A stretch of 34,459 bases of DNA from a virus, in the IMG/VR virus record IMGVR_UViG_3300013130_000020, positions 1 through 34,459 of that record; one strand, 5' to 3'. Below are positions 1,606 to 27,800 of this stretch, piece after piece. Each line of letters begins with the position of its first letter. The stretch's first letter is position 1. The translations under genes and the position numbers were made by a program. The notes under the pieces are model-generated. The model saw only the letters and a list, made by a program, of their open reading frames with translations. It searched no databases and was not told the DNA's origin.

Positions 1606-1832
1606 TATGTGCAAAGGCGCAATGTATAATAAATGTGAAAAATAATCTAATTAGGTTGTGGAAAAGGTTGTGGAAAACTTTTATATTATCTCTGCAACAC
1701 TTATAGTCTCTGAAACCCTTGTAAATGCCCGCTGCCGTTGTTGTCTAAGCGGTCGCACCATAAGACCCCCGAGACACACCGAGAACCTATAAGATCCACA
1801 GCACACTTATAAGAACTCCCCACCACAAAAGC

Positions 1833-1878
1833 ATAAGTTTTCCACACGTTTTCCCCAGTTTCTTATAAGTTTTCCACA
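1833..1878 (+). repeat. Direct repeat ATAAGTTTTCCACA, two copies 32 bp apart
   Basis: The 14-base word is at 1833-1846 and 1865-1878. The 32-bp spacing is about three helical turns, so a protein bound to both would sit on the same face of the DNA. A near-match (TTTTCCCCA) lies between them at 1849-1857. Confidence 0.8.
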
Positions 1879-1941
1879 GAGCATTTGTGTTACTTTGGGT
1901 GACAGACTGCGATCTCAGTGATACCTGTGGAAAACTTTGTG

Positions 1942-1973
1942 TTTACTTAGTGCAATGACTTCGGCACTATAAT
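1942..1973 (+). promoter_or_regulatory. Sigma-70-like promoter for the 2010 gene
   Basis: A perfect TATAAT -10 box lies at 1968-1973, about 37 bases before the ATG at 2010. A weak -35 (TTTACT, 1942-1947) sits 20 bp upstream, longer than the usual 17 bp. A TTTTCCACA site (1926-1934, minus strand) lies immediately upstream, and a copy of the GTGACAG(T/A)CTGCGA element is at 1899-1912. The host vegetative RNA polymerase would be expected to use it early in infection. Confidence 0.5.
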
Positions 1974-2009: not shown

Positions 2010-2171
2010 ATGTCCGCTTCGTTGATGATCTCTGCACTTCGTTTGGGTAACACTGGCAACGAGATCTTGTCGATCTTGGATGCACTTACATCCGATGAAC
2101 AGTCTACCACATCTGACAGTGTTTGTCAAGTCGCTTATAATGAACCCACAGCAGATGTGATCGATTTCTGA
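2010..2171 (+). CDS. Conserved-looking micro-protein, 53 aa
   Basis: ATG 2010, TGA 2169-2171, with a TATAAT promoter upstream and a terminator-like repeat downstream, so it forms a single-gene unit. The first half, ALRLGNTGNEILSILDAL (residues 9-26), resembles a short helical motif (GNTG-EIL-ILDAI) I associate with small proteins of cyanomyoviruses; the acidic tail ends in DVIDF. The function is unknown. Its independent promoter and terminator suggest strong early expression. Confidence 0.6.
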   Translation: MSASLMISALRLGNTGNEILSILDALTSDEQSTTSDSVCQVAYNEPTADVIDF

Positions 2172-2231: not shown

Positions 2232-2339
2232 ACCTTCGCGGGGCGATGCCTAAAGCTAAAAACGCTAACTACCCTAACCTACAACGAACCAAAAACGCGA
2301 ACGAGATATAAGGATTATAAAAAAATTTTTTGGGTATAA

Positions 2340-2404
2340 AAACCTCATAAGAGTTGCATGATATTTGAAATATTTTTTTAGAAATATAAATTATTATGAG
2401 GTTT
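2340..2404. repeat. 11-bp inverted repeat in AT-rich spacer
   Basis: AAACCTCATAA (2340-2350) and its exact reverse complement (2394-2404) enclose 43 bases that are themselves rich in short palindromes (an ATATT/AATAT pair near 2371-2383). This 2232-2438 spacer also holds an A7T6 run near 2318-2331. No gene is visible. It may fold as a long hairpin in the transcript upstream of the SGNH-like gene, acting as a terminator or processing site. Confidence 0.5.
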
Positions 2405-2438
2405 CCAGTAAATTTCAATTTTTTTAAACATCATAAAT

Positions 2439-2768
2439 ATGAAGATATTCTTTAATGGTTGTTCTTTTACCTGGGGAGATGAACTAGAAAATAATCTTGA
2501 AGAAAGATTTAGTACGCTTGTTGCTAATCATTATCAAGCAGAACATGTTAATATCTCTGACTGTGGACAAAGTAATGATGCGATTGCTCGTACCACAATG
2601 GAATGGTTTGCAGATGGTAATACAACAGACTTAGCAGTTATTCAGTGGACAATTATTTCTAGATTTGAGGGGTATGATGATTCAAAGAAAAAATACATTC
2701 ATATAACAGCTGATAGAAAAAGTAAGTGGGATCATTTTTATAGAAAATATTATTATCGATCAATTTAG
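2439..2768 (+). pseudogene. SGNH-hydrolase-like protein, N-terminal piece (109 aa)
   Basis: The product begins FFNGCSFTWGDEL, the block-I signature of SGNH/GDSL hydrolases with Ser9 as the likely nucleophile. ISDCGQSNDAIARTTMEW follows and looks like the next conserved block with its oxyanion-hole Gly and Asn. Family members normally run to 200 or more residues and end with a D-x-x-H block. Here the frame stops after 109 residues, and a fitting C-terminal block appears at 3348-3551, beyond an HNH endonuclease gene. Such enzymes remove or transfer acyl groups on sugars. I infer a gene split and probably inactivated. A CATAAATA late-promoter-like word (2432-2439) abuts the ATG. A short independent protein remains possible. 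Confidence 0.6.
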
Positions 2769-2916: not shown

Positions 2917-3309
2917 ATGTTACTCTCTTCTCCAGATGAGTATCTTTATCAATTACAAGCGAACAATAAGGCAGACGCAATAAGATTATGGAGAAAAGCG
3001 ATTAAAGAAGCATGGAACGACTGTTGTGCATATTGCGGGCAACATAAAGACCAAATGACGATTGACCATATCATCCCACAATCCTTGGGCGGTACGGATG
3101 AATTAATGAACGTTATTTGTTGTTGTGAAGATTGTAACCGCGACAAGTCTCATACTGAAGTTGAAATTTGGTATTTTCAACAGTATTTTTTTAATCAAGA
3201 GCGTTGGGATAAACTTGAAGATTGGCGAACCCCAAAGACAACAGGTACTAAAAAAAGATATGTGCGAGGTAAAAATGGCGTATCTACTAGAGCAATCATA
3301 CAAAAATAA
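2917..3309 (+). CDS. HNH homing-type endonuclease
   Basis: This 130-residue protein has a clear HNH nuclease core: zinc-type cysteines C37-x2-C40 and C70-x2-C73, the catalytic DHIIP motif at residues 50-54, N65, and NRDK at 74-77. The N-terminal third is helical and charged, and the C-terminus is basic (KKRYVRGKNG), suited to DNA binding. Free-standing HNH genes are common mobile elements in T4-like phages, spreading by cutting alleles that lack them. It sits between two pieces of an SGNH-like gene, which suggests it landed inside that gene. No obvious intron splice structure was identified. Confidence 0.9.
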   Translation: MLLSSPDEYLYQLQANNKADAIRLWRKAIKEAWNDCCAYCGQHKDQMTIDHIIPQSLGGTDELMNVICCCEDCNRDKSHTEVEIWYFQQYFFNQERWDKLEDWRTPKTTGTKKRYVRGKNGVSTRAIIQK

Positions 3310-4742: not shown

Positions 4743-4838
4743 ATGAACCCTATTGCGGCATTAATTAGATGGATCAAAGGTGAATATAAGTTATGGAAGC
4801 TCCGCCGCCAAGATCCTTACATCTATGAAGATGATTGA
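4743..4838 (+). CDS. Basic micro-protein, 31 aa
   Basis: ATG 4743, TGA 4836-4838. The product is MNPIAALIRWIKGEYKLW... with a hydrophobic N-terminal helix, a basic middle (KLRRQDP) and an acidic end (YEDD). It could be a small amphipathic, membrane-touching peptide. From memory, similar peptides occur in cyanomyovirus genomes. The stop lies two bases before the carbamoyltransferase ATG at 4841, consistent with coupled translation. Confidence 0.55.
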   Translation: MNPIAALIRWIKGEYKLWKLRRQDPYIYEDD

Positions 4839-4840
4839 TA

Positions 4841-6226
4841 ATGATTGGAATTAGTGAGGGATTTCATGATGCTGCAATATCAGTCATCAATAACGGTAAA
4901 ATCAAATTTGCTGCCCATGCAGAACGTTATTCTAGAGTAAAACATGATAAACATCTAAATCTATCAGTATGTGCAGAAGCATTGCTTCATACTGAAGATG
5001 ATATCGTTGCATTCTATGAACGTCCTTGGTTAAAGCGTACTCGTCAGTTCTTTGCGGGACAGTATAAGAGTGCATTTAAAGAAAGGAATATCTACATCAC
5101 TCCTAATCAGTATTACTCACATCATCTCTCCCATGCTGCTGCAGCATTTCAGACATCGCCATATTCCGATGCTGCATGTGTTGTCGTAGACAGTATTGGA
5201 GAATGGGATACTGCTTCAATCTGGTACGCTCAGATGGTGGAGGGTTGTGCTAAGTATAAGAAAGTGTGGTCTAAGAAGTATCCAAATTCTATTGGATTGT
5301 GGTACTCGGCTTATACGAAATGGGCAGGTTTGAAACCCTTAGACGAAGAATACATCTTTATGGGTATGGCAGCGTTCGGCAAACCCTTATACGTTGAACA
5401 AGCGCGTAACTTGCTCTCTAGAAATAACCACAAGGGCTTTCCCATCTCTCTTGAAGGAAATCCAGAAGACAACTCAAAGAGTGCTGAGATTGTTCTCTAT
5501 GAGGAACTGAGAAAAATTTTCAATAAAGCAAGACATCATAGTAATAATATTTGTTATGGCGGAGGTGTTGCTTTAAATTGTGTAGTGAACACTAAGCTAC
5601 AAAATGAGCACCCGTACATGTGGATTATGCCCAATCCAGGAGATGCTGGAGCTTCCTTAGGGGCAGCTTTGTTATCTTATGGTGGCAAAGTTAATTTTAC
5701 CCCGTATTTGGGTGAAAACATTCAAAAAACGGTTGACGTCAAGCAAATCGTTGACACATTACTGCACAAAGGTATGTGTGGGATTGCAAATGGGCAGGCT
5801 GAGTTTGGACCACGGGCTTTAGGTAATAGAAGTCTTCTAGCGGATCCTAGAACACTCCAGATGAAGGATTTAGTTAATACTGTTAAGAAGAGACAGAAGT
5901 TTCGTCCATTTGCTCCTGCTATTTTAGAGGAGCATTGTCAGGACTATTTCTGTATGCCCGCAAATAGTCGCTATATGTCCTTTGTATACGACTGTAAGCG
6001 TCCTGATTACATCCCAGCATGTGTTTATGTAGATAATACCGCTAGAGTTCAAACAGTTCCTACATGGTCTTCTAGCATCCTTAGAGAAATTCTTGAGTGT
6101 TGGTATGAGCGTACTGGTTGTCCAGCTCTTCTTAATACATCACTAAATATTCGTGGAATCCCTATTGTAAATACTTGGGATGATGCGATACAGTTTTCCA
6201 AGCAATATGATATTGAGGTTTACTAA
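4841..6226 (+). CDS. Carbamoyltransferase (NodU/CmcH/TobZ family)
   Basis: I start at ATG 4841 (MIGISEGFHDAA), not the TTG two codons upstream, because the family begins with an I-G-I-x-x-x-x-H-D-A motif. The 461-residue protein shows the ASKHA-type N-terminal domain (GISEGFHDAAISVI, then HAERYSRVKHDKH), the metal-binding HHLSHAAAAF segment, GGGVALNCVVNTKL around residues 237-250, and the C-terminal YrdC-like signature AEFGPRALGNRSLLADPR near 320-337, followed by FRPFAPAIL. These enzymes use carbamoyl phosphate and ATP to carbamoylate a hydroxyl group on a sugar or antibiotic. Family members are usually about 550-600 residues, so this is a compact form. Its stop shares a base with the radical SAM start (TAATG). 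Confidence 0.9.
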   Translation: MIGISEGFHDAAISVINNGKIKFAAHAERYSRVKHDKHLNLSVCAEALLHTEDDIVAFYERPWLKRTRQFFAGQYKSAFKERNIYITPNQYYSHHLSHAAAAFQTSPYSDAACVVVDSIGEWDTASIWYAQMVEGCAKYKKVWSKKYPNSIGLWYSAYTKWAGLKPLDEEYIFMGMAAFGKPLYVEQARNLLSRNNHKGFPISLEGNPEDNSKSAEIVLYEELRKIFNKARHHSNNICYGGGVALNCVVNTKLQNEHPYMWIMPNPGDAGASLGAALLSYGGKVNFTPYLGENIQKTVDVKQIVDTLLHKGMCGIANGQAEFGPRALGNRSLLADPRTLQMKDLVNTVKKRQKFRPFAPAILEEHCQDYFCMPANSRYMSFVYDCKRPDYIPACVYVDNTARVQTVPTWSSSILREILECWYERTGCPALLNTSLNIRGIPIVNTWDDAIQFSKQYDIEVY

Positions 6227-7458
6227 TGGAAGATAATAAAGTTATTTGCTCATTTCCCTTTTTTAGAATTTATAATAACTTGACAATGCAAGCCTACACT
6301 CCATGTTGTTGGGCAACTATATGGAAAAGCGAAACTAATCCTAGAACCACTTTACCCATAGATCATTTTACAGGTGAAGAATTCAATCGCCTTAGAAGAG
6401 AAATGCTTCAAGGCGAAAAAACAGAGTTTTTAGAAACATACTGCGGCAATTGTTGGAAGCAAGAAGCAGAAGTTAACAATTCTCCTAGAAAAGAATTTCT
6501 ATTCTTTTTAGATCCCCCTGGTACTAGGGGCGATGGAAATTGTCTTTTAGACCTGTTTAATACAGACGGTACTATGAAAGATAATGACGTTAGATTTATA
6601 AGCCTTGCAATTAATATTTATGGAAATTCTTGCAATTTACAATGTTACGAATGTCTTGCAGATAATTCTAGCTCAAGAATTTCGGTAATAAAGAAAATAA
6701 ATGATCCTATCTTTAACAAAAATTTTCATTATAATGAAGAAAGATTAAGCAATGGAACATTAAAACCACTCGAACCAGAACAGGTTAATAGAATTGTTGA
6801 TGAGATTGTATCTTATGGACACAAGATTCATGATATTAATATTGTTGGAGGAGAGCCAATGTTGATGCGGCCAAGTTTTAAATTACTCGATAAATTAATT
6901 GAAACTGGTCATTCTAAAAATATTGGTCTTGCCATAGTTTCAAATATGACATTGATGACAGTAAAAAAAATGAAAAAGTACTTTGATGAATTCATGTTTA
7001 TTGGAATTCAGTGGAGTGTTGATGCAATAAGAGAAAGAAATCATTGGTTAAGATATCCAACAGATTGGGATCTAACAATAGAAAATGTTAAAGAAGTTAA
7101 AGCATATCTAGAAGAAAATAATAAAGGACAGCTTCGAGCAACAGTAACACCAAGTTTGTTTAGCATAACTTCTTTAGAAGAAACATCTAAATGGTTATTT
7201 GAAAATAATTATGAGCAATTGTATACAAATTTTGTACGTGAACCCGAGTTTTTAAGTCCTCAACATCTACCTCAAGAATTAAAAGATGAAATTGGACCAA
7301 AGGTTTTAAAAATATCCAATCAACATTGGGAACAGCTAATGAAAGAACGTAATGAAGATGAGTTTAATGATGCAATTAGATATGCTGATGTGTTAGATAA
7401 AGATAGGGGAACAAACTGGAGAACTGTATTTCCAGAAATAGCAAAATATGCAAATTGA
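6226..7458 (+). CDS. Radical SAM protein with twitch-like N-terminal cysteines
   Basis: The 410-residue protein carries the radical SAM cluster C136-x3-C140-x2-C143 (in YGNSCNLQCYEC) and the SAM-contacting GGEP motif at residues 208-211. The first 80 residues contain CSFPFFRIYNN, PCCW (26-29) and YCGNCW (72-77), a cysteine arrangement like the auxiliary-cluster SPASM/twitch region, here at the N-terminus. Such enzymes modify peptides or sugars through a 5'-deoxyadenosyl radical. Start and stop overlap with the carbamoyltransferase gene suggests a shared pathway. The gene is AT-rich and ends before a late-promoter-like motif. The substrate cannot be read from the sequence. Confidence 0.85.
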   Translation: MEDNKVICSFPFFRIYNNLTMQAYTPCCWATIWKSETNPRTTLPIDHFTGEEFNRLRREMLQGEKTEFLETYCGNCWKQEAEVNNSPRKEFLFFLDPPGTRGDGNCLLDLFNTDGTMKDNDVRFISLAINIYGNSCNLQCYECLADNSSSRISVIKKINDPIFNKNFHYNEERLSNGTLKPLEPEQVNRIVDEIVSYGHKIHDINIVGGEPMLMRPSFKLLDKLIETGHSKNIGLAIVSNMTLMTVKKMKKYFDEFMFIGIQWSVDAIRERNHWLRYPTDWDLTIENVKEVKAYLEENNKGQLRATVTPSLFSITSLEETSKWLFENNYEQLYTNFVREPEFLSPQHLPQELKDEIGPKVLKISNQHWEQLMKERNEDEFNDAIRYADVLDKDRGTNWRTVFPEIAKYAN

Positions 7459-7464
7459 CAGTTT

Positions 7465-7512
7465 CTAAATAATGTGGTATCATAATTTTGGGTGATACCC
7501 GTTTACGTAAAC
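7465..7512. promoter_or_regulatory. CTAAATA motif followed by two adjacent palindromes
   Basis: CTAAATA (7465-7471) is followed by GGTATCA/TGATACC (7476-7482 with 7493-7499; 10-base loop) and directly by the perfect 12-bp palindrome GTTTACGTAAAC (7501-7512). The first could terminate or protect the radical SAM transcript; the second looks like a dimeric protein-binding site. The glycosyltransferase ATG is 20 bases further on. Confidence 0.4.
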
Positions 7513-7532
7513 AAATCAATTGAAGTATATTT

Positions 7533-8294
7533 ATGGCAAAAGGTTTTAAAGTGGTTACAAAACCGCCTACAGCATCTTCTAATAATTCAGATAATTTTAG
7601 CTTAGAAGAAGCAAAGCAAATGATCAAGGACAAAAGTATTGTCTTTTGTCTTCCTGGAAGAGGCGTTTCATATACATATCTCAAAAATTTTGTACAATTA
7701 TGCTTTGATCTTGTACAAAATGGAGCGTCAATTCAAATTTCACAAGACTATTCTTCAATGGTCAACTTTGCCCGTTGTAAGTGTCTTGGTGCCAATGTTC
7801 TTCGTGGACCAAATCAACTTCCTTGGGATGGTAAACTAAAGTATGATTACCAACTTTGGATTGATAGCGACATCGTATTCAATACAGAATCGTTCTACCG
7901 CCTAGTGTGGATAGATAAGGATATTGTTTGTGGTTGGTATGCGACTGAAGATGGCGTAACAACATCGGTTGCACACTGGCTTGAAGAAGATGACTTCAAG
8001 AATAATGGCGGTGTTATGAATCATGAAATGGTTGATGGTATTCAAAAGCGTCGTAAGCCGTTTACTGTCGATTATACTGGGTTTGGTTGGACACTAATCA
8101 AGCATGGTGTATTTGAACATCCAGAGATGACGTATCCTTGGTTTGCTCCTCAAATGCAAGTCTTCGATTCTGGAGAAGTTCAAGATATGTGTGGTGAGGA
8201 TGTTTCGTTCTGTCTAGATGCAATTAAGGCAGGATTTGAAATTTGGTGTGATCCAATCTGTCGAGTAGGACACGAGAAGACACGAGTTATCTAA
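7533..8294 (+). CDS. GT-A-type glycosyltransferase
   Basis: The 253-residue protein shows the metal-binding DxD motif in LWIDSDIVF (D111-S112-D113), preceded by YSSMVNFARCKCLG, and followed by the acceptor-side segment GFGWTLIKHGVF. The C-terminal CGEDVSFCLDAIKAGFEIWCDP (220-241) contains the E-D pair typical of retaining or inverting GT-A enzymes, and a terminal GHEK His may ligate the metal. It transfers a sugar from a nucleotide sugar, probably to a glycan or a structural protein. The first 35 residues are disordered (TKPPTASSNNS). The 74-bp gap before it contains a late-promoter-like motif. The donor and acceptor are unknown. Confidence 0.8.
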   Translation: MAKGFKVVTKPPTASSNNSDNFSLEEAKQMIKDKSIVFCLPGRGVSYTYLKNFVQLCFDLVQNGASIQISQDYSSMVNFARCKCLGANVLRGPNQLPWDGKLKYDYQLWIDSDIVFNTESFYRLVWIDKDIVCGWYATEDGVTTSVAHWLEEDDFKNNGGVMNHEMVDGIQKRRKPFTVDYTGFGWTLIKHGVFEHPEMTYPWFAPQMQVFDSGEVQDMCGEDVSFCLDAIKAGFEIWCDPICRVGHEKTRVI

Positions 8295-8325
8295 TATATA
8301 AGTTAGAATTTGTGTCGGATTACAC

Positions 8326-8490
8326 ATGGAGAAATACGATATATACTGTCAGGGGAGAAAAATCTATTCTTCCGTAACGGAAGAGGATATGTTGGAGATC
8401 ACGCAAGAACTTGCTGATCAATTTTATCAAAATGGTACTCCCCATCCTGACGATATCGTGATAGAATATCTTGGTTACGACATTGAATAA
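8326..8490 (+). CDS. Small acidic protein of unknown function, 54 aa
   Basis: ATG 8326, TAA 8488-8490. The product MEKYDIYCQGRKIYSSVTEED... has an opening beta pair, then a helix (MLEITQELADQFYQNG) and an acidic PHPDDIVIEYLG end. From memory, short proteins of this Y-x-I-Y-x-x-G...L-T-E-E-x-x-x-x-x-x-x-E-L type recur in cyanomyoviruses without a function. It is followed three bases later by a basic micro-protein gene, suggesting a co-expressed pair. Confidence 0.6.
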   Translation: MEKYDIYCQGRKIYSSVTEEDMLEITQELADQFYQNGTPHPDDIVIEYLGYDIE

Positions 8491-8493
8491 ATT

Positions 8494-8637
8494 ATGACAT
8501 TGAAAAAAACTGCATCTGGGGTAAAGATTATCGAATCTCATCCCAAAAATACTCGTCAGGGACGCTCAAAGAACACAAAAATTTCTGCAACAAGTAGGAA
8601 TGGTGTTGGTAAGCGGTACAGAGGTCAAGGAAAATAA
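8494..8637 (+). CDS. Highly basic micro-protein, 47 aa
   Basis: ATG 8494, TAA 8635-8637. The product is dominated by Lys, Arg, Ser, Asn and Gly, with a core RQGRSKNTKISATSRNG (residues 21-37) and a KRYRGQG end. It has no hydrophobic core, so it is probably disordered and nucleic-acid-binding or assembled with an acidic partner; the 54-residue neighbour is acidic. I recall the R-Q-G-x-S-x-N-T-K motif as recurrent in cyanomyoviruses. Confidence 0.6.
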   Translation: MTLKKTASGVKIIESHPKNTRQGRSKNTKISATSRNGVGKRYRGQGK

Positions 8638-8686
8638 TTCATAATCAATAGATTGGTTTGAATTCCACTTCTCATTATTATCGAAG

Positions 8687-8821
8687 ATGGAGTTTACCTA
8701 TACAGACAATAGAATAGATTTATCAACATTACTAATGTCGCTGATGGTAACATCGGCGGTGATAAAGTTGACAGACGCTTCTATAACTATAGATAAATTA
8801 TTGTCAACGTATTCAAAATAA
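8687..8821 (+). CDS. Possible micro-protein, 44 aa
   Basis: ATG 8687, TAA 8819-8821. The product MEFTYTDNRI... is mainly hydrophobic and Thr/Ser-rich (LSTLLMSLMVTSAVIKL at residues 12-28), possibly a membrane-associated helix. It fills the gap between the basic micro-protein and a strong terminator and is the only sizable frame there. No recognised similarity; coding status is uncertain. Confidence 0.4.
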   Translation: MEFTYTDNRIDLSTLLMSLMVTSAVIKLTDASITIDKLLSTYSK

Positions 8822-8830
8822 TTTATAGAT

Positions 8831-8858
8831 AAGACAGGACAAAATCCTGTCTTTTTTT
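8831..8858 (+). terminator. Strong intrinsic terminator
   Basis: AAGACAGGA (8831-8839) pairs perfectly with TCCTGTCTT (8845-8853) around a CAAAA loop, followed by an uninterrupted T7 run (8852-8858). It lies 9 bases after the 44-residue frame. The T-tract touches the ATG of the next gene at 8859, so no ribosome-binding site fits between them. Confidence 0.9.
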
Positions 8859-9491
8859 ATGGCATATCTAAATCACAATTTGCCGACTATAACTTGTTAT
8901 ATTCGTAACGAGTTTTTATATAACCACAAGAAAGGTCACGGAGAAGTGACACTATGTGATGTTCATTCAGTAGCATCTTTGGAGAAACATGTTCCACTAT
9001 TTGAAGCATTTTTAGAAAATGGTGTCAACTGGACAAGAAGACCTATTCATGCATTCTGTTGGAAACCAGATGTTCCTGCTCCAAAATTAGAAGAGTGTAT
9101 GTGGTGGGATTGTTTTTCCCCATATGTTGATGTTCAGATTAGATCTAGACTTGCAAATCTTAGAGCTGAACTTATAAATTATCGAGGAGAAAAAAATGAG
9201 GGTACTTATTTGTTTACTCTTGATTGGTCATGGGAATCAAAATCTACTTTGAATACAAATTTTAGTGAGACCCCAGAACATAAGTGTGCTCATGTATTCA
9301 AAATGGATAATGGAAATTTCTATGCGTATCCTAATAATAAAATCCTTTGGTTTGATGATGCATGGACAAAAAATAGAATTACAAAAAATCCAGGTTATGA
9401 AATAGATTTGACAGAGTACTCTGTGGAAAACCTCAGAAAGATTGAAACTTCAGACGACTTCATGTATGAGACTATGAAAATCTCGGGATAG
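8859..9491 (+). CDS. Conserved-looking phage protein of unknown function, 210 aa
   Basis: Begins MAYLNHNLPTITCYIRNEFL and contains an aromatic, Cys/Trp-rich middle (RPIHAFCWKPDVP, CMWWDCFSPYVDV around residues 62-93) and a C-terminal part with TLDWSW and AHVFKMDNGNFYAYPNNKI. It probably forms a single globular domain and has no signal or membrane segment. I recall similar proteins next to gp25 in cyanomyovirus genomes but know no function. The start abuts the T-tract of a terminator: expression must come from read-through, a leaderless-type start, or a later start. The conserved look of the N-terminus argues for the ATG at 8859. Confidence 0.75.
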   Translation: MAYLNHNLPTITCYIRNEFLYNHKKGHGEVTLCDVHSVASLEKHVPLFEAFLENGVNWTRRPIHAFCWKPDVPAPKLEECMWWDCFSPYVDVQIRSRLANLRAELINYRGEKNEGTYLFTLDWSWESKSTLNTNFSETPEHKCAHVFKMDNGNFYAYPNNKILWFDDAWTKNRITKNPGYEIDLTEYSVENLRKIETSDDFMYETMKISG

Positions 9492-11979: not shown

Positions 11980-14900
11980 ATGATAGAAACCTCCCTATCC
12001 AAAGTCAAAATCAATCAAATTGTTCAGAGCCAAGTTCCTGAATATATTGCCGTTGAAAATCCTTATTTTGGCGAATTTCTAAAGCAATATTATTACTCTC
12101 AGGAGTATCAGGGAGGTCCTGTTGATATTGCTGACAATTTAGTTGAATATAAGGGATTAGATTATCTTAATACAAGAAATCTTATTGGATTTACATCACT
12201 AACGTCTTATATCAGCGGTATTGATGAAACCATTTATGTTAAGTCTACAGATGGTTGGCCAGCACAATGGGGTCTGCTAAAAATTAATGATGAGATTATT
12301 ACTTATGCAGGTATTGGGTCAACATCATTTATTGGATGCGTTCGTGGATTTAGTGGAATTGAAAAAAATAGTAAAACAAATCATCCAGAATATCTAACAT
12401 TCAATTCTAGTGGAATTTCAACACATGCAGTAAATGCAAAAGTTGAAAATCTAAGTAATATATTTTTAAATCAATTTTTAAAGAAATTAAAAACTCTAGT
12501 TCTTCCAGGATTTGAAGATAGAGGTTTATATGGTGATTTAAACGAGACTAATTTTATTAGACAAGCAAAAGATTTTTATAAGTCAAAAGGAACTGAAGAA
12601 GCATTTAAAATTCTCTTTAAAGTATTATATGCTCAAGAGGTTGAAATGATTCAACCTCAACAATTTGTTATAAAACCATCGGATGCAGATTATATTAAAA
12701 ATGACGTATTGGTATGTGAAGCAATTAGCGGTAATCCAACAAAAATTGAAGGTCAAACATTATTCCAAGATACTACACCATTACAGACTAGTGGATCTGT
12801 TTATAATGTTGAGAAAGCATTAATTAGTGGTAGTACTTATTATAAGATTTCTATTTCAAAGGGAACTACGATTGGCAAGTTTCTTCAAGTTGGGAAGACC
12901 ATTGTTACAAAAACTTCTGGTGCTGGATCTACAATTATTAATGTAGACAGCACTGTTGGATTTGCTAAGACGGGCGATTTGGGATACGAAAATATTCAAC
13001 TTTCATATACAGACAAAAATTATACTCAGTTTCTTGGAGTTTCTGGTATTACAACCACTGTAGGCATAGGATCTACAGTTTTTGCTGCTGGACTTCAAGT
13101 ATATTCCTATGAAGATGGAAATCTAGATAGTCCAGTTTATCTAAATGTGGTTGGTTCAATTAATAATTTTGTTGGAAATGCATTAAATCAACAAGAAGAA
13201 AGCGATATTAAAGTATCAACTTTAGGTATTGAGCAAAAGGATATTAGGTTTACTTCTTGGATCTATAATACCCCATCAAAATATAATATCGATACAATTA
13301 CTTCATTAGGATCAAATGTATATGAATTTAAATTCTTTGTTAATCATGTTTTATATATTGGCGATACTTTAGAAATTGTAGATGAGGATAATAATACTGT
13401 AATTGGATCTTTGTTACAAATTATTAATAGTAAAGTTGTACAAGTCAATTGTGCTTCTTTAAATTTATCTAAAAAATATTTTATAAGAAGGCAATTAAAG
13501 ACAAATAAAGATTATACTGCAGATGTTCAAAATACATACTCATCTGGAACAGAGGTTTATGTTGCATCAAATAGTCTTCCACACTGGAACATAAATCCTC
13601 AAAAGAGAATTAGATCTTTCACAACATCTGGCATTGTAACAAATACCCAGATTTCGATTACAGATCATCATTTCAATGATGGTGAACTTGTGGTATATAA
13701 ACCATCAAGTACAAATAATTCTGTATCTGGTTTAAGCACTAATCAATCATATTATATCCGTAAAATTGATGATAATACATTATCACTTGCGTATTCACTA
13801 GAGAATGCTCGTAGAGGTCAATTTATTACAATATTTGCATCGAATGATTTATCTGGAGTTACTACACATACATTAACTCCATATAATGTTGGTTTTTCCA
13901 CAATAGGAGCACAAAAATTACTAAGAAAATTTTCAGTTCCCGAGTTTAGTGAGATTAAATCTGAGACTATTCAAGGTGGAGTTGGATTATTTGTTAATGG
14001 TGTAGAAATTTATTCATACAAATCTACCGACAAAGTTTACTATGGTCCAATTCAATCTGTTAGCGTGCTTAACGAGGGATCTAATTTTGATGTAATTAAT
14101 CCTCCAAGACTTTCAGTTTATCAAGATGGACATACTGGGGTAGGTGCATCTGTTGTAGCACATGTAACTGGAACTATAGAAGAAATTCTTGTTGATACTG
14201 AAGGATTAGATTATATTTCTGCACCTAGTGTTTATATTTCTGGTGGGAACGGATCTGCTACTGCAGAAGCAAAAATGAAATTAGTTCCACATCAAGTGGA
14301 CTTTGATAGTACAAGTACTGGAGGTATTGTAGATACTGTTACTGATAAAATTACTTTCCCAGAAGCACATGGATTTAAGCATGGTGAAGAAATCATTTAC
14401 AATACCCGTGAAACAACACCGATCGGTCTTGGAACAACTCCAGGAACATTAATTAATGGTTCGTCTTATTTTGTCATTAAGAATAGCGATTACAGCATTT
14501 CTTTGGCAGAAACAAGGCAAAAAGCACTTGTGGGTATTGCAACTCTCGATATCATTTCCAATGGTGAGGGATTTCATGCCTTTTACACCAAAGAAAGGAG
14601 ATTAAAAGTTGATAAAGTTTATATTATTGAAAATGGTACTTTTTATAATAAAGAAAATATAACAACTCCTACTGGTATCAATTTATATACAGATACTATT
14701 ACAATCAAAAATCACGGATATAATTCTGGCGAAGAATTAAAATATTCAACGACCGAATTAGCAATTGGTGGTTTAAGTACAACTGCAAAATATTATGCTA
14801 TAAAACTTAATAATAATCAATTTAGAGTATCAATCTCTACCAGTCTAACAAATTATGTTGGATTGACTAGTGTTGGTTCTGGATATCATATTTTTAACTA

Positions 14901-17900
14901 TCCACCAATTAATGTTACTTTAAATGGTTCTCAGGGTATTACAACATCTAATGCTACTGCTACACCAATAGTTAGAGGATCAATAACATCAATTCATGTA
15001 AAAGATTCTGGTAGTGATTTTGGATCTACAATTATTAATGATAATTATAGACCAGAAATTAGAGTCATAGAAGGTTCTAATGCTGCATTGAGACCATTTA
15101 TTGTTAATGGAAAATTAGAATCTGTGATTATAAAGAGTGGTGGATCAAATTATTTTAGCATTCCAGATATTATTATTTCTGGTGATGGTGTTGGTGCGAA
15201 AGCAAAAGCAAATGTTCTAAATGGTCAGATCATCAGTATTGACATTATTGATACTGGTATAGGATATACTGAAAGCAATACAACAATTACAGCATCTACT
15301 CCTGGAGAAGGTGCAATATTTTCATCAAACTTAAAAGAATGGACAGTTAATCAAGTTGAAAGATACGCAAAGATTGGTGATGTAAGTTCTGATGATGGTT
15401 TTTATGAAACAATAAGAAGTTCTAAACTTGGAAATCCTTATATTAATTATTATATTCCAAGAAATTTAAGAACTTTCTTAAATGACACTGGTATTCAACA
15501 TTCTCCGATTGTAGGATATGCTTACGATGGAAGTCCTATTTACGGACCGTATGCATATACTAATATCAATGGATCAGGAGCATTAAAATATTTACAACCA
15601 AGTTATGTAAAAATTTCTGGTGCAAGAGTAGATGGTCCAAATATTACACAGTATCCAGCTGGATTTTTTGTAGAAGATTATAGTTATGTTCAAGGAAGTG
15701 GTGATTTAGATGAACATAATGGTCGTTTTGCAATTACTCCAGAATATCCAAATGGTGTATATGCTTATTATACAACATTATCCTCATCAATTATTGGAAA
15801 TAGTGGAAGTCCATTTAATGGAGTAAGACAACCACTATTCCCATATGTAATTGGAAATACTTATAATTTTACTCCAAGCATTTTTAATTACGACTACAAT
15901 TCAAATCAAGATATTGATCCAATTTCACTAAATCTAGTGAGAAATACTGATGCTTATAAAATTAATGATGGATATGAATTTGTTAGTAATAATATTAAGA
16001 ATACCTTTGTACAATCAAAAATTTCTAAAGTAAAATCTGGTTCTATAGAAAAAATTGATGTAGTAGAAAGTGGTATTGAATATAATGTTGGTGATAGAGT
16101 GTTATTTGATAACTCAGATACTTTTGGATTTGGACCTATTGCAAAAGTATCAAAAGTTGTTGGTATTGCAGTAACAAATATAACGTCATCAATTACAACA
16201 TTAAGTAATATTGATTTAGTGTGTAATAATGGATCTGTAACTGCTATCTCAACAGTTCCACATAATTTATCAGCTGGATCTTATGTAAGCATCGTTGGAA
16301 TATCTTCTACGTCGTTTAGTAACTTAACAGGAACATTTAAAATTGATGTGAAGCGTGTAACTTCTGGTCTAGCAACATCTATGCTGGCAACTGGACTTAC
16401 AACTAGTGTTCAAATTATAGATCTTGCATCTAAATTTAATACTAATGATATTATAAAAATTGATAATGAACAATTCCTAGTTATGGGAATTGATAAAGCA
16501 AATAATAAATTAAATTTGCTAAGAAACTATAATGGAACAACTGGTGCTGCACATACAAATCGTTCAGAAATTGTTAGGCTCGAAAAAGAATTTAGTTATG
16601 AACTAGAAAAAGTTGTTTCCCTTTCTACACCAAAGAACGAAACTATCTTTTTTGATGCTTCAACGTCTGTTGGTGTTGGATTATCATATGGAGTTGGAAT
16701 TGGAACAACTATTTCCTATATTGGTGCAGGAAATAGTCAAAAATCTATCTTTATTCCAACTAGAACTATTTTCTTACCAGATAATCCTCTTGTTCATGGT
16801 GAAGAAGTCTTTTATAGTCCTGGAGCAGGAACTTCATTGACGTATTCATTGAATGGAAGTACAACTTCACCAATGCCATCAAAAATGTATGTACAAAAAC
16901 TTACAAAAGATTTGATTGCACTTACAAATGCAAAAACTGGTATTAATTCAGATTTATCAAGAGTTTATTTCAATGGAAATATTGGAATAGGTAATAGTCA
17001 TTTATTTACAACAAGAAAAAATGTTGTAACATGTAACGTTAAGACTGTAGACGTTGTTGTATCAACAGGGTCTTCTCATTTACTAAGACCAGATGATATA
17101 ATTGATTTATCTGTAGTTTCTACTGCTACAAGTTCAATTTCTGCAATTTATAATCCTACAACTAGATTTGTAAGTATCGGATCATCAATTAATCCAAGAT
17201 TGAATGTAGTTTCTGGAGATTACTTGGAATTTGATCTTTCAGATTCAAGTCTCTTAAATACAAAATTAGAATTTTTCTTAGATAAGAATTACACTAAGAA
17301 ATTTGTTGGATCTGGAGTTTCATCTTTAGAAATAACAAATCAACTTGCACCAGGCATTACATCAGCAAAAACGACAGTTCATTTTACTAATGAAGTCCCT
17401 AAAGTTCTATATTACAAATTTACATCAGAACTCCCAACAAAAATTATTGAGACTAATAAAGATATTGAGGACTATTCAAAAATTATTGTAAATGTTAGTA
17501 AATTTACTGGAACACACTCATTAACAACTACTACAAATCAAACATTTACATTTAATATATTTGAAGTTCCTGAAAGGGTAGGATATACTAGTGCTTCCTA
17601 TATTAACTATATTACAAATTCTACCAATGTAAGTGGACCAATTGCAAAAGTAGATATTTCAGATGGTGGTAAAAATTACAAATCTTTACCAAAAGCATCT
17701 GTTGCATCTACCACTGGATCTTCAGCATCTTTAAGGGTATATGGATCCAATATCGGCGCTATTGATGCTGTAAAAATAATAGATTTTGGTTATGATTATT
17801 CATCAGATAAAACTCTTCGTCCACAAGCAGCAGTTCCTCAAGTAATTATTTTAAAAGATAATTATACCGTCAATACAGTAGCGATTACTTCAACAGGTTC

Positions 17901-20178
17901 AAAATATCTTGTTGCTCCAGATTTAATTGTTTATAATAGAAAATCCGATACAATCAACACCCAAGCAAGTATTGTTGCTAAGTTATCTGGAAATAGTGTT
18001 GGATCAGTAAGTATTAATAATCCAGGAGGAAATCTTAAGAGCACTGATAATTACGTCATTGCAATTAATAATACTAATGGTGTTGGAATTATTAGTGCAA
18101 CATATTCTTCTCCAAATGTTACACTAAGACTTCAAACTCCAACAACAGGATTTACAACAAGCAATCCTCTTCCATTCGCTATTGGTGATCAAATATTTGT
18201 AGAGAATATTGGTGTTTCTACTGGAAAGGGATATAATTCTTCGGAATATGAGTATCGCTATTGGACTATCACTGGAATAAATACCGCATTTGGACTATTA
18301 AATCAAGCAACAATTTCATATGCAGTAGACGAAAATCCAGGTATTCATGATGGATTACAGTATGGATCCGTATCTAATGTTAAGGATATTGCTAAGTTCA
18401 GTTTAACTTTGAAGGAAGGACAATTCTATAATGGAGAAGAAGTATATACTAATTCAACTTCTTCAAATGTTATTGCTGGAAATGGACCTGTAACAAATAT
18501 TTTGAGAGTTGATAGTCTTGTCGGTCTTAAAACTGGGGATTTAGTAAAAGGAAGAATTTCAGGTTCTTCTGGAATTATTGAGAGTATGCAAGATTATTCA
18601 GGATCTTTTGATGTTAATTCATCAATATCAAAAGATTTTGGTTGGGAAAAAGATACTGGAAAATTGAATGATTTCTTCCAAAGAATTCATGATAGTGATT
18701 ACTATCAACAATTTGCATATTCATTAAAGAGTAAAGTTGGTATTAGTAGTTGGAGTGAACCTGTTGATAGTCTAGCGCATATTTCAGGATTTAAAAAACA
18801 TTCTGATTTACTCATTCCGTCAGATAGTTTAGCTGGACTTGGTAGTACTAGCGTTTCGGTTGGTGTTGGAACTCAATCTAGTACAATTATATTAGTTGCT
18901 CCAGATACAGTAAAAATGTATTGTAAGCATGATTGGGATCTCGTTTACGAAAAAACAAATAGTGATGCAACAATCAGTGATAAAATTGTTTTCCAATCAA
19001 ATCGTTTTGGGGATGCTTTAATCTGTAAGTCAAATAGAGTTCTTGAAATTGATGATATCAGTCCACAGTTCTATTCAGATCCAGATATAAGTAGAACAAT
19101 AGAACTTGATAGTTTTGATGTTAATCAAGCATCTGCTATCAAATATTATGCACAAGTTGTTCTTGATACATCATTAGGAATTACATTTAATGAAACTCAA
19201 TATACTGAGTTTGTAGTTTCTCATGATGGATCTGTATCATTTAATAATCAATATTCAGATTTGTCTGATGCATTTGACTTGGGAGATTTTAGTACTTCAA
19301 TTTCTGGTACAACAATTTCTGTTCTATTTTCACCATATAACACCACATATGCTTATGATATAACTTTCTATAAAGAAAAAATTGATCCGTCTGTTGGTGT
19401 AGGAACAACATCATTTGGACACATCAAAAAAGTTGGAATTTCTTCTTTTATTGCTTTGTCTGGATCACCAACAGAACAAATTATTCAATCAATCGATGCA
19501 AATGAATTTAAGAGTGGTAGTGTAATTGTTTCTGTAATTGGAATTAATGAGAAAAATATTACTGAGGCATCTTTCCTTGGAATAGGATCAACTTGCCAAT
19601 ATATTGAATTTGGCAAAATGGATAGTGGAGTTGGACTTGGAACATTTATTGCAGATATGACAGCAACAAATACACTTCATCTGAAGTGGTTACCTGCCGC
19701 TGGAGTAGGTGTTACTGTTGCTATGTTATCTACTTTGGTAGGAGTTGCAACTACAGTTCCTGGGGGTATTCCAGGCACATCTCTTGAAGTTGGAGATGCT
19801 TCATTAAACTGCACAAGAACTATTATCGCACCTTCTGCAACACCTTCAGCAGAAAATATTGCTGTTATTTCATCAAATAATTATGTTTCTGTAAAATATA
19901 TGATTGAAGTTTATAACACAACAGATAATGAATATTCGTTCTTCCATGTGGCAGCAAATGTATATGGTGATATTGTCAATTACGTTAGATATAATAACTT
20001 ATCAACATCTGTAGATAATAAACGAGATATTCAGAATATTGATATGACGGTTTCTGGAACAAATGCTCTTTTAAGATTTACTCCAAAAGCAAATAAAACT
20101 TATATTGTTAGAACGTCTGAGATTAGAATTGATAAACCAGATGATGTATCATCTGATGTCGTTATAACCCTTCCATAA
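11980..20178 (+). CDS. Giant baseplate structural protein in the gp7 position, with YHYH-like domain
   Basis: 2732 residues, against 1032 for T4 gp7, whose place between gp6 and gp8 it occupies. Residues 1-250 look like a wedge domain: FGEFLKQYYYSQEYQGG, then FIRQAKDFYKSKGTEEAFKILF and PQQFVIKPSDADY. The rest is beta-rich modular sequence. H-x-x-x-GE modules start near 560, 797, 911 and 1604. Gly/Tyr/Pro modules (for example GLDYISAPSVYISGG) lie near 695, 740, 1008, 1051, 1091, 1890, 1935 and 1970. GIGST/GIGTT signatures are scattered throughout. Residues about 1173-1290 resemble a YHYH domain (VGYAYDGSPIYGPYAY, DLDEHNGRF, PNGVYAYYTT). It likely forms peripheral baseplate or fiber-attachment structures. 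Equivalence to gp7 is inferred from gene order. Confidence 0.8.
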   Translation: MIETSLSKVKINQIVQSQVPEYIAVENPYFGEFLKQYYYSQEYQGGPVDIADNLVEYKGLDYLNTRNLIGFTSLTSYISGIDETIYVKSTDGWPAQWGLLKINDEIITYAGIGSTSFIGCVRGFSGIEKNSKTNHPEYLTFNSSGISTHAVNAKVENLSNIFLNQFLKKLKTLVLPGFEDRGLYGDLNETNFIRQAKDFYKSKGTEEAFKILFKVLYAQEVEMIQPQQFVIKPSDADYIKNDVLVCEAISGNPTKIEGQTLFQDTTPLQTSGSVYNVEKALISGSTYYKISISKGTTIGKFLQVGKTIVTKTSGAGSTIINVDSTVGFAKTGDLGYENIQLSYTDKNYTQFLGVSGITTTVGIGSTVFAAGLQVYSYEDGNLDSPVYLNVVGSINNFVGNALNQQEESDIKVSTLGIEQKDIRFTSWIYNTPSKYNIDTITSLGSNVYEFKFFVNHVLYIGDTLEIVDEDNNTVIGSLLQIINSKVVQVNCASLNLSKKYFIRRQLKTNKDYTADVQNTYSSGTEVYVASNSLPHWNINPQKRIRSFTTSGIVTNTQISITDHHFNDGELVVYKPSSTNNSVSGLSTNQSYYIRKIDDNTLSLAYSLENARRGQFITIFASNDLSGVTTHTLTPYNVGFSTIGAQKLLRKFSVPEFSEIKSETIQGGVGLFVNGVEIYSYKSTDKVYYGPIQSVSVLNEGSNFDVINPPRLSVYQDGHTGVGASVVAHVTGTIEEILVDTEGLDYISAPSVYISGGNGSATAEAKMKLVPHQVDFDSTSTGGIVDTVTDKITFPEAHGFKHGEEIIYNTRETTPIGLGTTPGTLINGSSYFVIKNSDYSISLAETRQKALVGIATLDIISNGEGFHAFYTKERRLKVDKVYIIENGTFYNKENITTPTGINLYTDTITIKNHGYNSGEELKYSTTELAIGGLSTTAKYYAIKLNNNQFRVSISTSLTNYVGLTSVGSGYHIFNYPPINVTLNGSQGITTSNATATPIVRGSITSIHVKDSGSDFGSTIINDNYRPEIRVIEGSNAALRPFIVNGKLESVIIKSGGSNYFSIPDIIISGDGVGAKAKANVLNGQIISIDIIDTGIGYTESNTTITASTPGEGAIFSSNLKEWTVNQVERYAKIGDVSSDDGFYETIRSSKLGNPYINYYIPRNLRTFLNDTGIQHSPIVGYAYDGSPIYGPYAYTNINGSGALKYLQPSYVKISGARVDGPNITQYPAGFFVEDYSYVQGSGDLDEHNGRFAITPEYPNGVYAYYTTLSSSIIGNSGSPFNGVRQPLFPYVIGNTYNFTPSIFNYDYNSNQDIDPISLNLVRNTDAYKINDGYEFVSNNIKNTFVQSKISKVKSGSIEKIDVVESGIEYNVGDRVLFDNSDTFGFGPIAKVSKVVGIAVTNITSSITTLSNIDLVCNNGSVTAISTVPHNLSAGSYVSIVGISSTSFSNLTGTFKIDVKRVTSGLATSMLATGLTTSVQIIDLASKFNTNDIIKIDNEQFLVMGIDKANNKLNLLRNYNGTTGAAHTNRSEIVRLEKEFSYELEKVVSLSTPKNETIFFDASTSVGVGLSYGVGIGTTISYIGAGNSQKSIFIPTRTIFLPDNPLVHGEEVFYSPGAGTSLTYSLNGSTTSPMPSKMYVQKLTKDLIALTNAKTGINSDLSRVYFNGNIGIGNSHLFTTRKNVVTCNVKTVDVVVSTGSSHLLRPDDIIDLSVVSTATSSISAIYNPTTRFVSIGSSINPRLNVVSGDYLEFDLSDSSLLNTKLEFFLDKNYTKKFVGSGVSSLEITNQLAPGITSAKTTVHFTNEVPKVLYYKFTSELPTKIIETNKDIEDYSKIIVNVSKFTGTHSLTTTTNQTFTFNIFEVPERVGYTSASYINYITNSTNVSGPIAKVDISDGGKNYKSLPKASVASTTGSSASLRVYGSNIGAIDAVKIIDFGYDYSSDKTLRPQAAVPQVIILKDNYTVNTVAITSTGSKYLVAPDLIVYNRKSDTINTQASIVAKLSGNSVGSVSINNPGGNLKSTDNYVIAINNTNGVGIISATYSSPNVTLRLQTPTTGFTTSNPLPFAIGDQIFVENIGVSTGKGYNSSEYEYRYWTITGINTAFGLLNQATISYAVDENPGIHDGLQYGSVSNVKDIAKFSLTLKEGQFYNGEEVYTNSTSSNVIAGNGPVTNILRVDSLVGLKTGDLVKGRISGSSGIIESMQDYSGSFDVNSSISKDFGWEKDTGKLNDFFQRIHDSDYYQQFAYSLKSKVGISSWSEPVDSLAHISGFKKHSDLLIPSDSLAGLGSTSVSVGVGTQSSTIILVAPDTVKMYCKHDWDLVYEKTNSDATISDKIVFQSNRFGDALICKSNRVLEIDDISPQFYSDPDISRTIELDSFDVNQASAIKYYAQVVLDTSLGITFNETQYTEFVVSHDGSVSFNNQYSDLSDAFDLGDFSTSISGTTISVLFSPYNTTYAYDITFYKEKIDPSVGVGTTSFGHIKKVGISSFIALSGSPTEQIIQSIDANEFKSGSVIVSVIGINEKNITEASFLGIGSTCQYIEFGKMDSGVGLGTFIADMTATNTLHLKWLPAAGVGVTVAMLSTLVGVATTVPGGIPGTSLEVGDASLNCTRTIIAPSATPSAENIAVISSNNYVSVKYMIEVYNTTDNEYSFFHVAANVYGDIVNYVRYNNLSTSVDNKRDIQNIDMTVSGTNALLRFTPKANKTYIVRTSEIRIDKPDDVSSDVVITLP
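15496..15850 (+). other. YHYH-like domain within the giant structural protein
   Basis: Encodes about residues 1173-1290. It shows the ordered blocks of the YHYH family: a G-Y-A-Y-D-G-x-P-I-Y-G-P core, an L-D-E-H-N-G-R-F block and an E-Y-P-x-G-x-Y-x-Y-x-x-T block. Here the name-giving YHYH reads YAYY, so the His is lost. The family's function is not known to me. Its presence inside a virion protein suggests a folding or ligand-binding module. Confidence 0.65.
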
Positions 20179-24899: not shown

Positions 24900-27800
24900 A
24901 TGCCACAAAACACTAACCTCAACACCAATCCATATTATGATGACTTTGATCAGGCAAAGAATTATAATAGGGTTCTTTTCAAACCTGGCATTCCTATTCA
25001 GGCAAGAGAATTAACAACTTTACAAGCAATTTTCCAAGATCAGGTTGAGAAATTTGGCAGCCATTTCTTTAAAGAGGGATCTGTAGTAATTCCAGGTTCT
25101 ATTGCATATGATGATAGATACTATGCAGTAAAATTAGAACCAACTTTTTTTGGTATCTCAGTTGAAACGTATTATGATAAACTTATTGGATTAACTATTC
25201 AAGGAAAAACTTCTGGTATTACAGCAGTTGTAAAAAAAGTTTTATCTAAAACACAATCTATTGAAGGTGTTACTACTTTATATGTAAAGTATCAAAAATC
25301 ATCGGAACAAGATTATACCACAGATCAGTTTCTTGATGGAGAAAACTTAGTAACACTTTCAGATTTTACATATGGATCCACGACAATTTCAGTTGGATCT
25401 GATTTTGCAACTTGTGTCCTCACAAATGCCACAGCAACAGGATCTTCATTCTCGGTAACCGAAGGTGTATTCTTTGCAAGAGGAGCATTTATTTCAGTAA
25501 GTGATGAAACTCTTATTTTAGATCAATATTCAAATATTCCATCATATAGAGTTGGGTTTTTTGTAAATGAAGAAATCGTAAGTGCTATTAATGATCCAAC
25601 TTTATATGATAATGCTCAGGGTTACTCAAACTATACTGCACCAGGTGCAGATAGATTAAAAATCAGCTTGTCTTTAATCAAAAAAGATTTAGAAGATTAT
25701 CAAGATGAAAATTTTATTGAACTATTCAGAATAAAGAATGGTGAAGTTAAAAAAATTGTTAGTAAAACAGTTTATAGTGAAATTGCAAAAGAATTAGCAA
25801 GAAGGACATACGATGAAAGTGGAGATTATTATGTTAATAAATTTGATATTCAAGCAAAGGAAAGTTTAAACGATAGATATTCAACTTTTGGGGTTTTCTT
25901 TCCAGAAGAAAATACTGATCAGGGTAATCAACCATCAAAAAATTTATTAGAAATACAAGTTGGTCCTGGAAAAGCATACGTTAAAGGATATGAAGTAGAA
26001 ACTCACGGAACAACTTTCTTAGACGTAGAAAGACCAAGAGAAACTACATTGGTTTTAGGTGCTGGAATTCCATTCCAAGCTGGAAATCTTCTAAGAGTAA
26101 ACAACGTTTATGGTGGCGCAAGCGTTGGACTTGCAACAACGGGATATGTAGATCTTCGTAGTCATAGACTTGGATCTATTAAAGCTGCTACTACTGGACA
26201 AAGTATTGGTAGAGCAAGAATATATGACTATAAGTGTACAAACACCGAGTACTCTAATAATGCATCACAGTTTGATTTATACCTATATGATATTCAAACT
26301 GATACCGAAATCACTTTAAATGAAGCATTAACGCTAGTATCTCCTGCACTAATTGAAGGAAAAAATTCTGGAGCTAAAGGATATTTAAGAACTTCTTCTG
26401 GAAATATTCTAACACTACACCAAACATCTGGAAACTTTATTATTGATGAAGCAATTTTTGTAAATGGAATTGAGAATGGTAGAGTAATTACTAAAGTATT
26501 AGAATTTGATCTAACCGACATAAGATCGGTAAGGTCTGAGGTTGGTATTACAACTTTCAGTGCAGACACTGTTTTAGAACCAAAACTTAATTTTGGTGCA
26601 AAACCATTTACTATTACATCTAGTTCTAGCGGTATCTCAACAGTAACTAGTTCTACAAGCGGATGGACTGTAGGAATTAAGACGGGCGATATTGTTTCTT
26701 ACGCTAGAACTGATGTATCTGGTAGTGTTTATAATAGAGTAAAAACTGTTGCACCGACATTACAAAGTTTAACTGTTGAAGCAGTTACAAATGTTTCTGG
26801 TGTTGCAACTGGAACACTACCACCATCTGCAGTCAGTGTTTCTGGTCTTCTAATTGTTGCACCAAAAATCAAAAACGCAAACTCTGGTTTCATGTATGCA
26901 GAGTTTCCTAATAAAAATATTGAAAGTGTAGATTTAACATCTTCTGATATTTTCATTAGGAAGGAATATAGAGATAGAAGTTCATCATCATTAGGATCTT
27001 TAGATCTTCCATCTTTAGCGGGAACTGATTTTGTTTATACACCCTTTGATGAAGAACGGTATTCCGTCTTCTATATGGATGGTACAGTTGAACCATTAAC
27101 ATCAGATCAGTTTCAACTAACAAATGGTGGAAAGGGCGCAACTATTTTTGGTTTATCTAAGACTAGTGAAACGGGAGTAATTGTTGTAACAACACAACAG
27201 AAATCTAAAGTTACATCTAAGAATAAAATTTTAAATCGTGCTGCTTCAATTACAGTATCTGGTTCAAAATATAATTATTCTGGAATTTCAACAGGCATTA
27301 TTGATGGATTAACATTCAATACTGCTTATGGAAAACGTGTTCAAGATAAAGAGATTTCTCTTGACGTTGCAGATGTTGTAAATGTTCATGCAGTATTCCA
27401 ATCATCAACAACTAGTGCTCCTACAGTTCCAAGTTTAGTTCTTTCATCACTGAATGGTCCTAATGCAACAAATCAAGACTTAATTGTTGGTGAGATTTTA
27501 ATTGGTAGTTCTTCAGGTGCATCTGCTATGGTTCTTGGTAAATCAGGAACCAATCAAATTTTTTATATAACAAAAAATAATCAAAGTTTTACTGAAAGTG
27601 AGCAGGTTGTATTCCAAGAAAGTGGAGTAACTGGAAATATATCACAAATTAATTTGGGTGACCAAAATATTTTAGATAACTTTAGTTTTGATACTGGACA
27701 GAGACTTGAGTATTATGATTTTGGTAGATTAATTAGAAAATCTGGATCGCAAGAACCTTCAAAGCAATTAACAATTTACTTCGATCACTTCACTATTAAT

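Follow-up and report, generated by a model that had tools for sequence, protein, structure and literature searches.

The locus in the window

The window is a 34.5-kb IMG/VR virus record from a T4-like cyanophage (34,459 nucleotides, analysed over its whole length) and is probably a fragment of the phage genome. It carries markers of the Kyanoviridae, i.e., a Kyano_Gp96 Pfam match at 292-702 and genes of the gp25 and gp6 families, and a conserved intergenic element, core I (see below), lies upstream of gp25/gp6 as it does in the isolates, which places the phage in that family. An HNH endonuclease gene (2917-3309) was found just right of core I. Cargo genes at 4835-9491, ahead of gp25, encode a Nol-like carbamoyltransferase, a radical SAM protein and a ferredoxin-family protein (PHROGs), and two very long ORFs, 11980-20178 (2732 aa) and 24900-31883 (2327 aa), lie past the baseplate genes.

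No credible gene was present at 1606-2009: the ORF on the left stops at 1605, and 2010 is the start of the next likely gene, whose 53-aa product (GNTGNEILSILD) had no match in Pfam (Table 1). Five exact matches to TTTTCCACA occur within 278 bp of this span; all except that at 1657 have an AAG extension to AAGTTTTCCACA, and the two direct copies at 1838 and 1870 are 32 bp apart. The sequence-only reading of this DNA had described five exact boxes, four of them extended, in a gene-free span, and this description was confirmed. The whole window held seven copies of TTTTCCACA, compared with a mean of 0.83 and a maximum of 4 in 100 dinucleotide shuffles. A search of the cluster region in Rfam matched no RNA family, and the folding of a 411-nt region was unremarkable (z -1.5).

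Table 1 Features at and around the box cluster, in window positions
Feature	Position	Strand	Basis or remark
AT-rich repeat block, unwinding-element-like, diverged copy	1627..1656	+	PWM 13.9 at -113 from block II
DnaA box (predicted) TTTTCCACA	1657..1665	-	Exact match; kept in most close relatives
DnaA box (predicted) AAGTTTTCCACA	1669..1677	-	Exact match; 12 bp from the 1657 box
Block II, consensus GTGATCTTAGCGAGCATTATAACACRAA	1740..1769	+	PWM 23.1, null maximum 7.1; leftward promoter weak here
DnaA box (predicted) AAGTTTTCCACA	1838..1846	+	Exact match; invariant in alignment A1
Degenerate DnaA box TTTTCCCCA	1849..1857	+	One mismatch; 11 bp from the 1838 box; alignment A1
DnaA box (predicted) AAGTTTTCCACA	1870..1878	+	Exact match; invariant in alignment A1
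DnaA box (predicted) AAGTTTTCCACA	1926..1934	-	Exact match; upstream of TATAAT; invariant in alignment A1
-10 hexamer TATAAT, likely rightward early promoter	1968..1973	+	Sequence reading
Small conserved gene, 53 aa (GNTGNEILSILD)	2010..2171	+	82 relatives among viral contigs
Core I, single-copy conserved intergenic element (CTAACTACCCTAACCTACAACGAACC...AAAAAAATTTTTT)	2251..2331	+	Sequence conservation
AT-rich stretch right of core I	2340..2440	.	Among the record's least stable duplex

Alignment A1, made of six sequences (the window and five related contigs), showed that most boxes and their spacing were unchanged, while the intervening sequence and the flanks had diverged. One box of the relatives was missing from the window, and the middle box, degenerate there, was perfect in two of the contigs (L598 and L104). 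DNA similarity searches of phage records with the cluster gave mostly chance-level matches, because the boxes are conserved and the flanks are not.

The word TTTTCCACA is a documented DnaA box of several cyanobacteria (PMC4674748), as the sequence-only reading had proposed, and the oriCs of marine Synechococcus share the related word GTTTTCCAC. Comparison of the long regions upstream of dnaN (oriC) of 17 cyanobacterial genomes, mostly of the WH7803 genus, revealed GTTTTCCAC as the sole 9-mer common to all of them. The clustered phage boxes match the host consensus, and the one-mismatch word TTTTCCCCA was found in the WH7803 oriC. DnaA was encoded in the four host genomes tested (Synechococcus WH7803 and others), and the WH7803 protein presented the Pfam domain-IV helix-turn-helix containing GGKDHTTV. 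Against a DnaA-based origin, dnaA is reportedly dispensable in Synechocystis, and Prochlorococcus reportedly has no DnaA box near dnaA (PMC4674748).

The spacing of the boxes followed the helical repeat. Same-strand boxes were separated by 11-13, 20-23 or 31-33 bp, and opposite-strand neighbours mainly by 13-14, 22-25 or 31-35 bp. The same-strand phase at 10.5 bp had a Rayleigh p of ~1e-7 for 29 pairs, some of them from related loci, and a p of 0.003 for a conservative set of 15 hand-thinned pairs. These same-strand spacings suggest that the boxes lie on one helical face, in an arrangement suited to cooperative binding.

Recurrence of the cluster across Kyanoviridae

A blastn search with sequence immediately right of the cluster detected core I in 44 phage records, nearly all from cyanophages, and its exact core CCTAACCTACAACGAACC was present in at least 119 IMG/VR stretches, of which two (L036 and L073) have it in other sequence contexts and are chance matches. 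Core I is built from an A-tract and CCTAACCTACA, which does not vary, then a right half that differs by lineage (ACGAACC, AAGGTTCC or GAGGTGACA, among others), with an A/T run downstream. With its left half invariant, at least four alternative right halves replace one another by lineage, one of which is the palindrome-like AACCTACAAAGGTT. Each of the seven records tested for the core I word contained one copy of it, and the element lies between a small-gene region and the gp25-gp6 region. To its right in the window, 60-bp nearest-neighbour windows beginning near 2340 and 2380 were within the least stable 2.9% and 0.7% of the record, respectively. The role of core I may be a different one, e.g., as a promoter for the downstream genes.

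The core I scan and both box-pair scans described here are samples of viral contigs, not censuses. In an unbiased count of 9-mers repeated at least three times upstream of core I, TGTGGAAAA ranked first, far above unrelated words. Among the matches listed, 94 non-redundant regions upstream of core I (137 kb) held 111 boxes, compared with an average of 1.8 and a maximum of 12 for 200 permuted words; a box pair within 60 bp occurred in 30 of these 94 loci, the permuted words giving 0.015 such loci on average and 2 at most. The small gene right of the cluster served as an independent anchor: 36 boxes were counted around it (permuted-word mean 0.4, maximum 6), with a box pair in 9 of 51 loci. A blind scan of viral contigs for box pairs agreed with these results, since cyanomyophage-like contigs made up 54 of the 115 among the matches listed and 16 of the 120 listed for the reversed-word control (odds ratio 5.8, p = 1.5e-8).

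Whole genomes showed the same restriction to one place. A box pair within 60 bp was present in 8 of 14 (S-ShM2, S-SM1, Syn19, S-SM2, P-TIM68, S-H35, S-PM2 and DSL-LC02), solely at this position, where chance would give 0.067 of 10 genomes; no such pair was found in P-RSM1, Bellamy, P-SSM2, S-SSM7, Sf-FS3 and S-SCSM2R. The eight positive genomes had 20 boxes in ~4 kb of this region and 20 across the other 1.45 Mb, i.e., a density ~360 times higher when 500 bp per genome is assumed. The cluster thus recurs at one fixed genomic place across the Kyanoviridae (T4-like cyanophages). Equal density of the word elsewhere, or lack of the cluster in relatives, would have spoken against the sequence-only reading; neither was observed.

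Box pairs were missing from about two thirds of the upstream regions among the matches listed, which kept core I and often block II (see below). Degenerate boxes were essentially lacking in these box-free lineages (0.15 per locus), so the absence of boxes is real. With many lineages lacking boxes, DnaA is therefore not essential family-wide, and its use, if real, looks optional.

The AT block, block II and promoter-like sites

The boxes are part of a larger conserved non-coding module that also comprises an AT block, block II and core I. The AT block and block II were first spotted by eye in the aligned regions and then tested with weight matrices, which were seeded from the loci they score and so are not independent; null values came from shuffled sequence. 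Among the core I matches listed, block II (GTGATCTTAGCGAGCATTATAACAC) exceeded a score of 15 in 67 of the 118 regions (maximum of the null, 7.1). Well-scoring copies always had a single orientation, and core I mostly followed 0.4-1.9 kb downstream. The AT block, with consensus TTAWAAATGGTWTTAWAAAYATAT..GTGT, was recognized in most of the listed loci with block II, always on the plus strand where well scored, nearly always on the left side of block II and in most block II loci 60-200 bp from it; the window copy, at 13.9, is a weaker match (null 99th percentile 10.6, maximum 14.9). The boxes followed the same geometry: 111 of 135 (82%, among the core I matches listed) fell within -230 to +200 bp of block II, most of them on its left beside the AT block, so that an AT-rich element adjoins the boxes in most block II loci.

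The AT block and block II were also present in the box-free genomes S-SSM7, Bellamy, Sf-FS3 and S-SCSM2R. Diverged forms of both were readable by eye in S-PM2 and S-H35, and S-SM1 had a version of block II. Other repeats were seen at some loci. In two members of a box-free lineage (L033 and L129), several direct repeats of ~35 bp, TATAAAAGGCTCTGATGTTCGTGCTTATGATCT, lie left of block II in the slot of the boxes, for which they are possibly a replacement module; a tandem-repeat search on L129 returned nothing, though short exact repeats are present. Close to the AT block, box-free Sf-FS3 (L008) and two other box-free loci (L050 and L122) have the inverted repeat CCTTCGGATA...TATCTCCGAAGG. Hairpins were considered as stand-ins for the boxes in such lineages, but the signal was weak and the idea was set aside. 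At two loci (L016 and L098) the interval from the boxes to core I contained many TTTGCTACATWTAAGG-like repeats.

The hexamers on the minus strand of block II look sigma-70-type. Among the core I matches listed, a TAnnnT was accompanied by a -35 hexamer with at most one mismatch from TTGACA in 31 of 53 loci (58%; 2.6% in shuffles), and the spacing was 17 bp in 27 of the 31. The predicted leftward promoter faces the boxes and the AT block in most loci; the window and its closest relatives have weak hexamers. We looked for a gene that it would drive and found no conserved leftward ORF. On the right of block II, sigma-70-like sites oriented rightward were predicted in 40 of the 53 loci (null 3.9; among the core I matches listed). 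An isolated DnaA box lies inside the spacer of a sigma-70-like promoter in one locus ~600 bp upstream of core I (L045, TTGACAGTTTTCCACAGAAGTATTATAAT), in a second (L053) and in relatives, and possibly puts an early promoter under DnaA control.

These sites agree with a reading in which DnaA is a transcription factor that activates or represses a divergent early promoter region: rightward sites are frequent, leftward ones stand in block II, and a box lies within the promoter spacer of the L045 group and another, that at 1926 in the window, upstream of TATAAT. As an account of the cluster it is nevertheless unlikely, given that no conserved leftward gene was found, that most boxes are left of block II, close to the AT block and at a distance from the rightward promoter, and that regulation would need no AT block in conserved order. 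Transcriptional control by DnaA is compatible with origin function, and several functions may coexist.

Proposed origin function and comparison with known systems

We observed directly the boxes, their conservation and phasing, their consistent co-occurrence with block II, core I and the AT block, and the lack of box pairs elsewhere in the genomes; from this arrangement we infer that DnaA binds the boxes, that the promoters are active, that the duplex opens and that the region works as an origin. On balance we favor the interpretation that the cluster serves a conserved Kyanoviridae replication origin region as its module for binding host DnaA, which seems moderately probable. Host DnaA would bind the helically phased boxes and help to open the adjoining AT-rich repeat. 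In many lineages the leftward sigma-70 promoter in block II would fire a non-coding transcript toward this repeat, and the transcript could melt the duplex or serve as primer for the leading strand, like the R-loops at T4 oriF and oriG. The phage replisome would then take over, with recombination-dependent replication later.

The sequence-only reading had proposed a phage replication origin here and had named GC skew as a check. The proposal held as far as the cluster is far from chance and sits at a conserved locus; the skew presented no genome-wide switch at the site. In 10 whole genomes it was positive through the site, with a local dip in some only, and it stayed positive almost throughout genomes whose annotated genes mostly occupy one strand. 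A skew change within the window was accordingly discarded as origin evidence, the whole genomes showing no such switch.

Two further explanations invoke a protein bound at the boxes, and a third invokes none. The cluster could be a datA-like decoy that titrates or senses host DnaA and so arrests or times host replication, with no phage origin. Phage copy number climbs during infection, which would favor titration, and perfect boxes are more numerous in the phage cluster than in the oriC of marine Synechococcus. In E. coli, DnaA titration by plasmid-borne boxes is established (PMC5835720). We nonetheless consider a decoy improbable: it needs no fixed place, and the boxes keep to the vicinity of block II and the AT block; the 2-7 boxes per cluster would, moreover, be few for titration at the start of infection. 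It is very unlikely that another host or phage protein binds TGTGGAAAA and that the likeness to a DnaA box is coincidental: some lineages have the module and lack TGTGGAAAA, as this would allow, but the 9-mer is the published cyanobacterial DnaA box (PMC4674748) and holds eight of the nine bases of GTTTTCCAC, common to all 17 oriC upstream regions. Chance or compositional clustering is refuted, to near certainty, by the conservation of the boxes across genera and by the shuffle, permuted-word and whole-genome counts.

Returning to the origin interpretation, many relatives keep the module of AT block, block II and core I without boxes. We therefore propose, tentatively, a modular hybrid origin of the Kyanoviridae, with a family-wide, T4-like promoter-plus-unwinding core, a host-DnaA module in many lineages and maybe other repeats in the DnaA-free ones. 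In the open-access literature we found no description of a replication origin of a T4-like cyanophage, nor any connection of these phages with host DnaA. With a candidate that is mapped and conserved and whose elements are defined, the origin question can be tested directly in the culturable S-PM2, Syn19 and S-ShM2, and the pattern of presence and absence of boxes offers natural controls inside one virus family. If the interpretation is true, a T4-like phage couples the start of its replication to the host initiator, and infection might in this way be linked to the host cell cycle.

P1-type phage and plasmid origins contain host DnaA boxes and are thus likewise origins of mobile replicons with host DnaA sites. 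They differ from the present case in that no Rep gene or iterons were identified beside most copies of the cluster, and in that the phage is large and T4-like. The lytic Pseudomonas phage vB_PseuGesM_254 has a putative origin with predicted DnaA boxes and AT repeats, which is an Ori-Finder prediction on a single genome, from another host and phage group, for which we saw no comparative support (PMC11512268). Cyanobacterial oriCs (Synechococcus elongatus, Anabaena, Cyanothece) likewise have a gene-free cluster of TTTTCCACA, usually beside dnaN (PMC4674748), and that of marine Synechococcus has the box core GTTTTCCAC in common with the phage cluster. The latter, in contrast, belongs to a lytic phage genome, is not beside dnaN and is accompanied by the phage elements block II and core I; its boxes are more often perfect than those of the marine Synechococcus oriC, and many phage relatives have none. 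T4 itself is not known to use DnaA. A review of T4 initiation leaves DnaA unmentioned and describes oriF and oriG as two-part origins, in which a promoter is joined by an A+T-rich unwinding element where an R-loop is held (PMC3016281). The cyanophage module, likewise of a T4-like phage, seems in many lineages to have these two parts, a predicted promoter facing an AT-rich element ~60-200 bp away, which would give a non-coding transcript, plus the boxes. The R-loop is known for T4 oriF and oriG, whereas the cyanophage module is known from its sequence; the T4 promoter is a MotA middle-mode promoter, and that of the cyanophages looks sigma-70-like, with DnaA boxes added.
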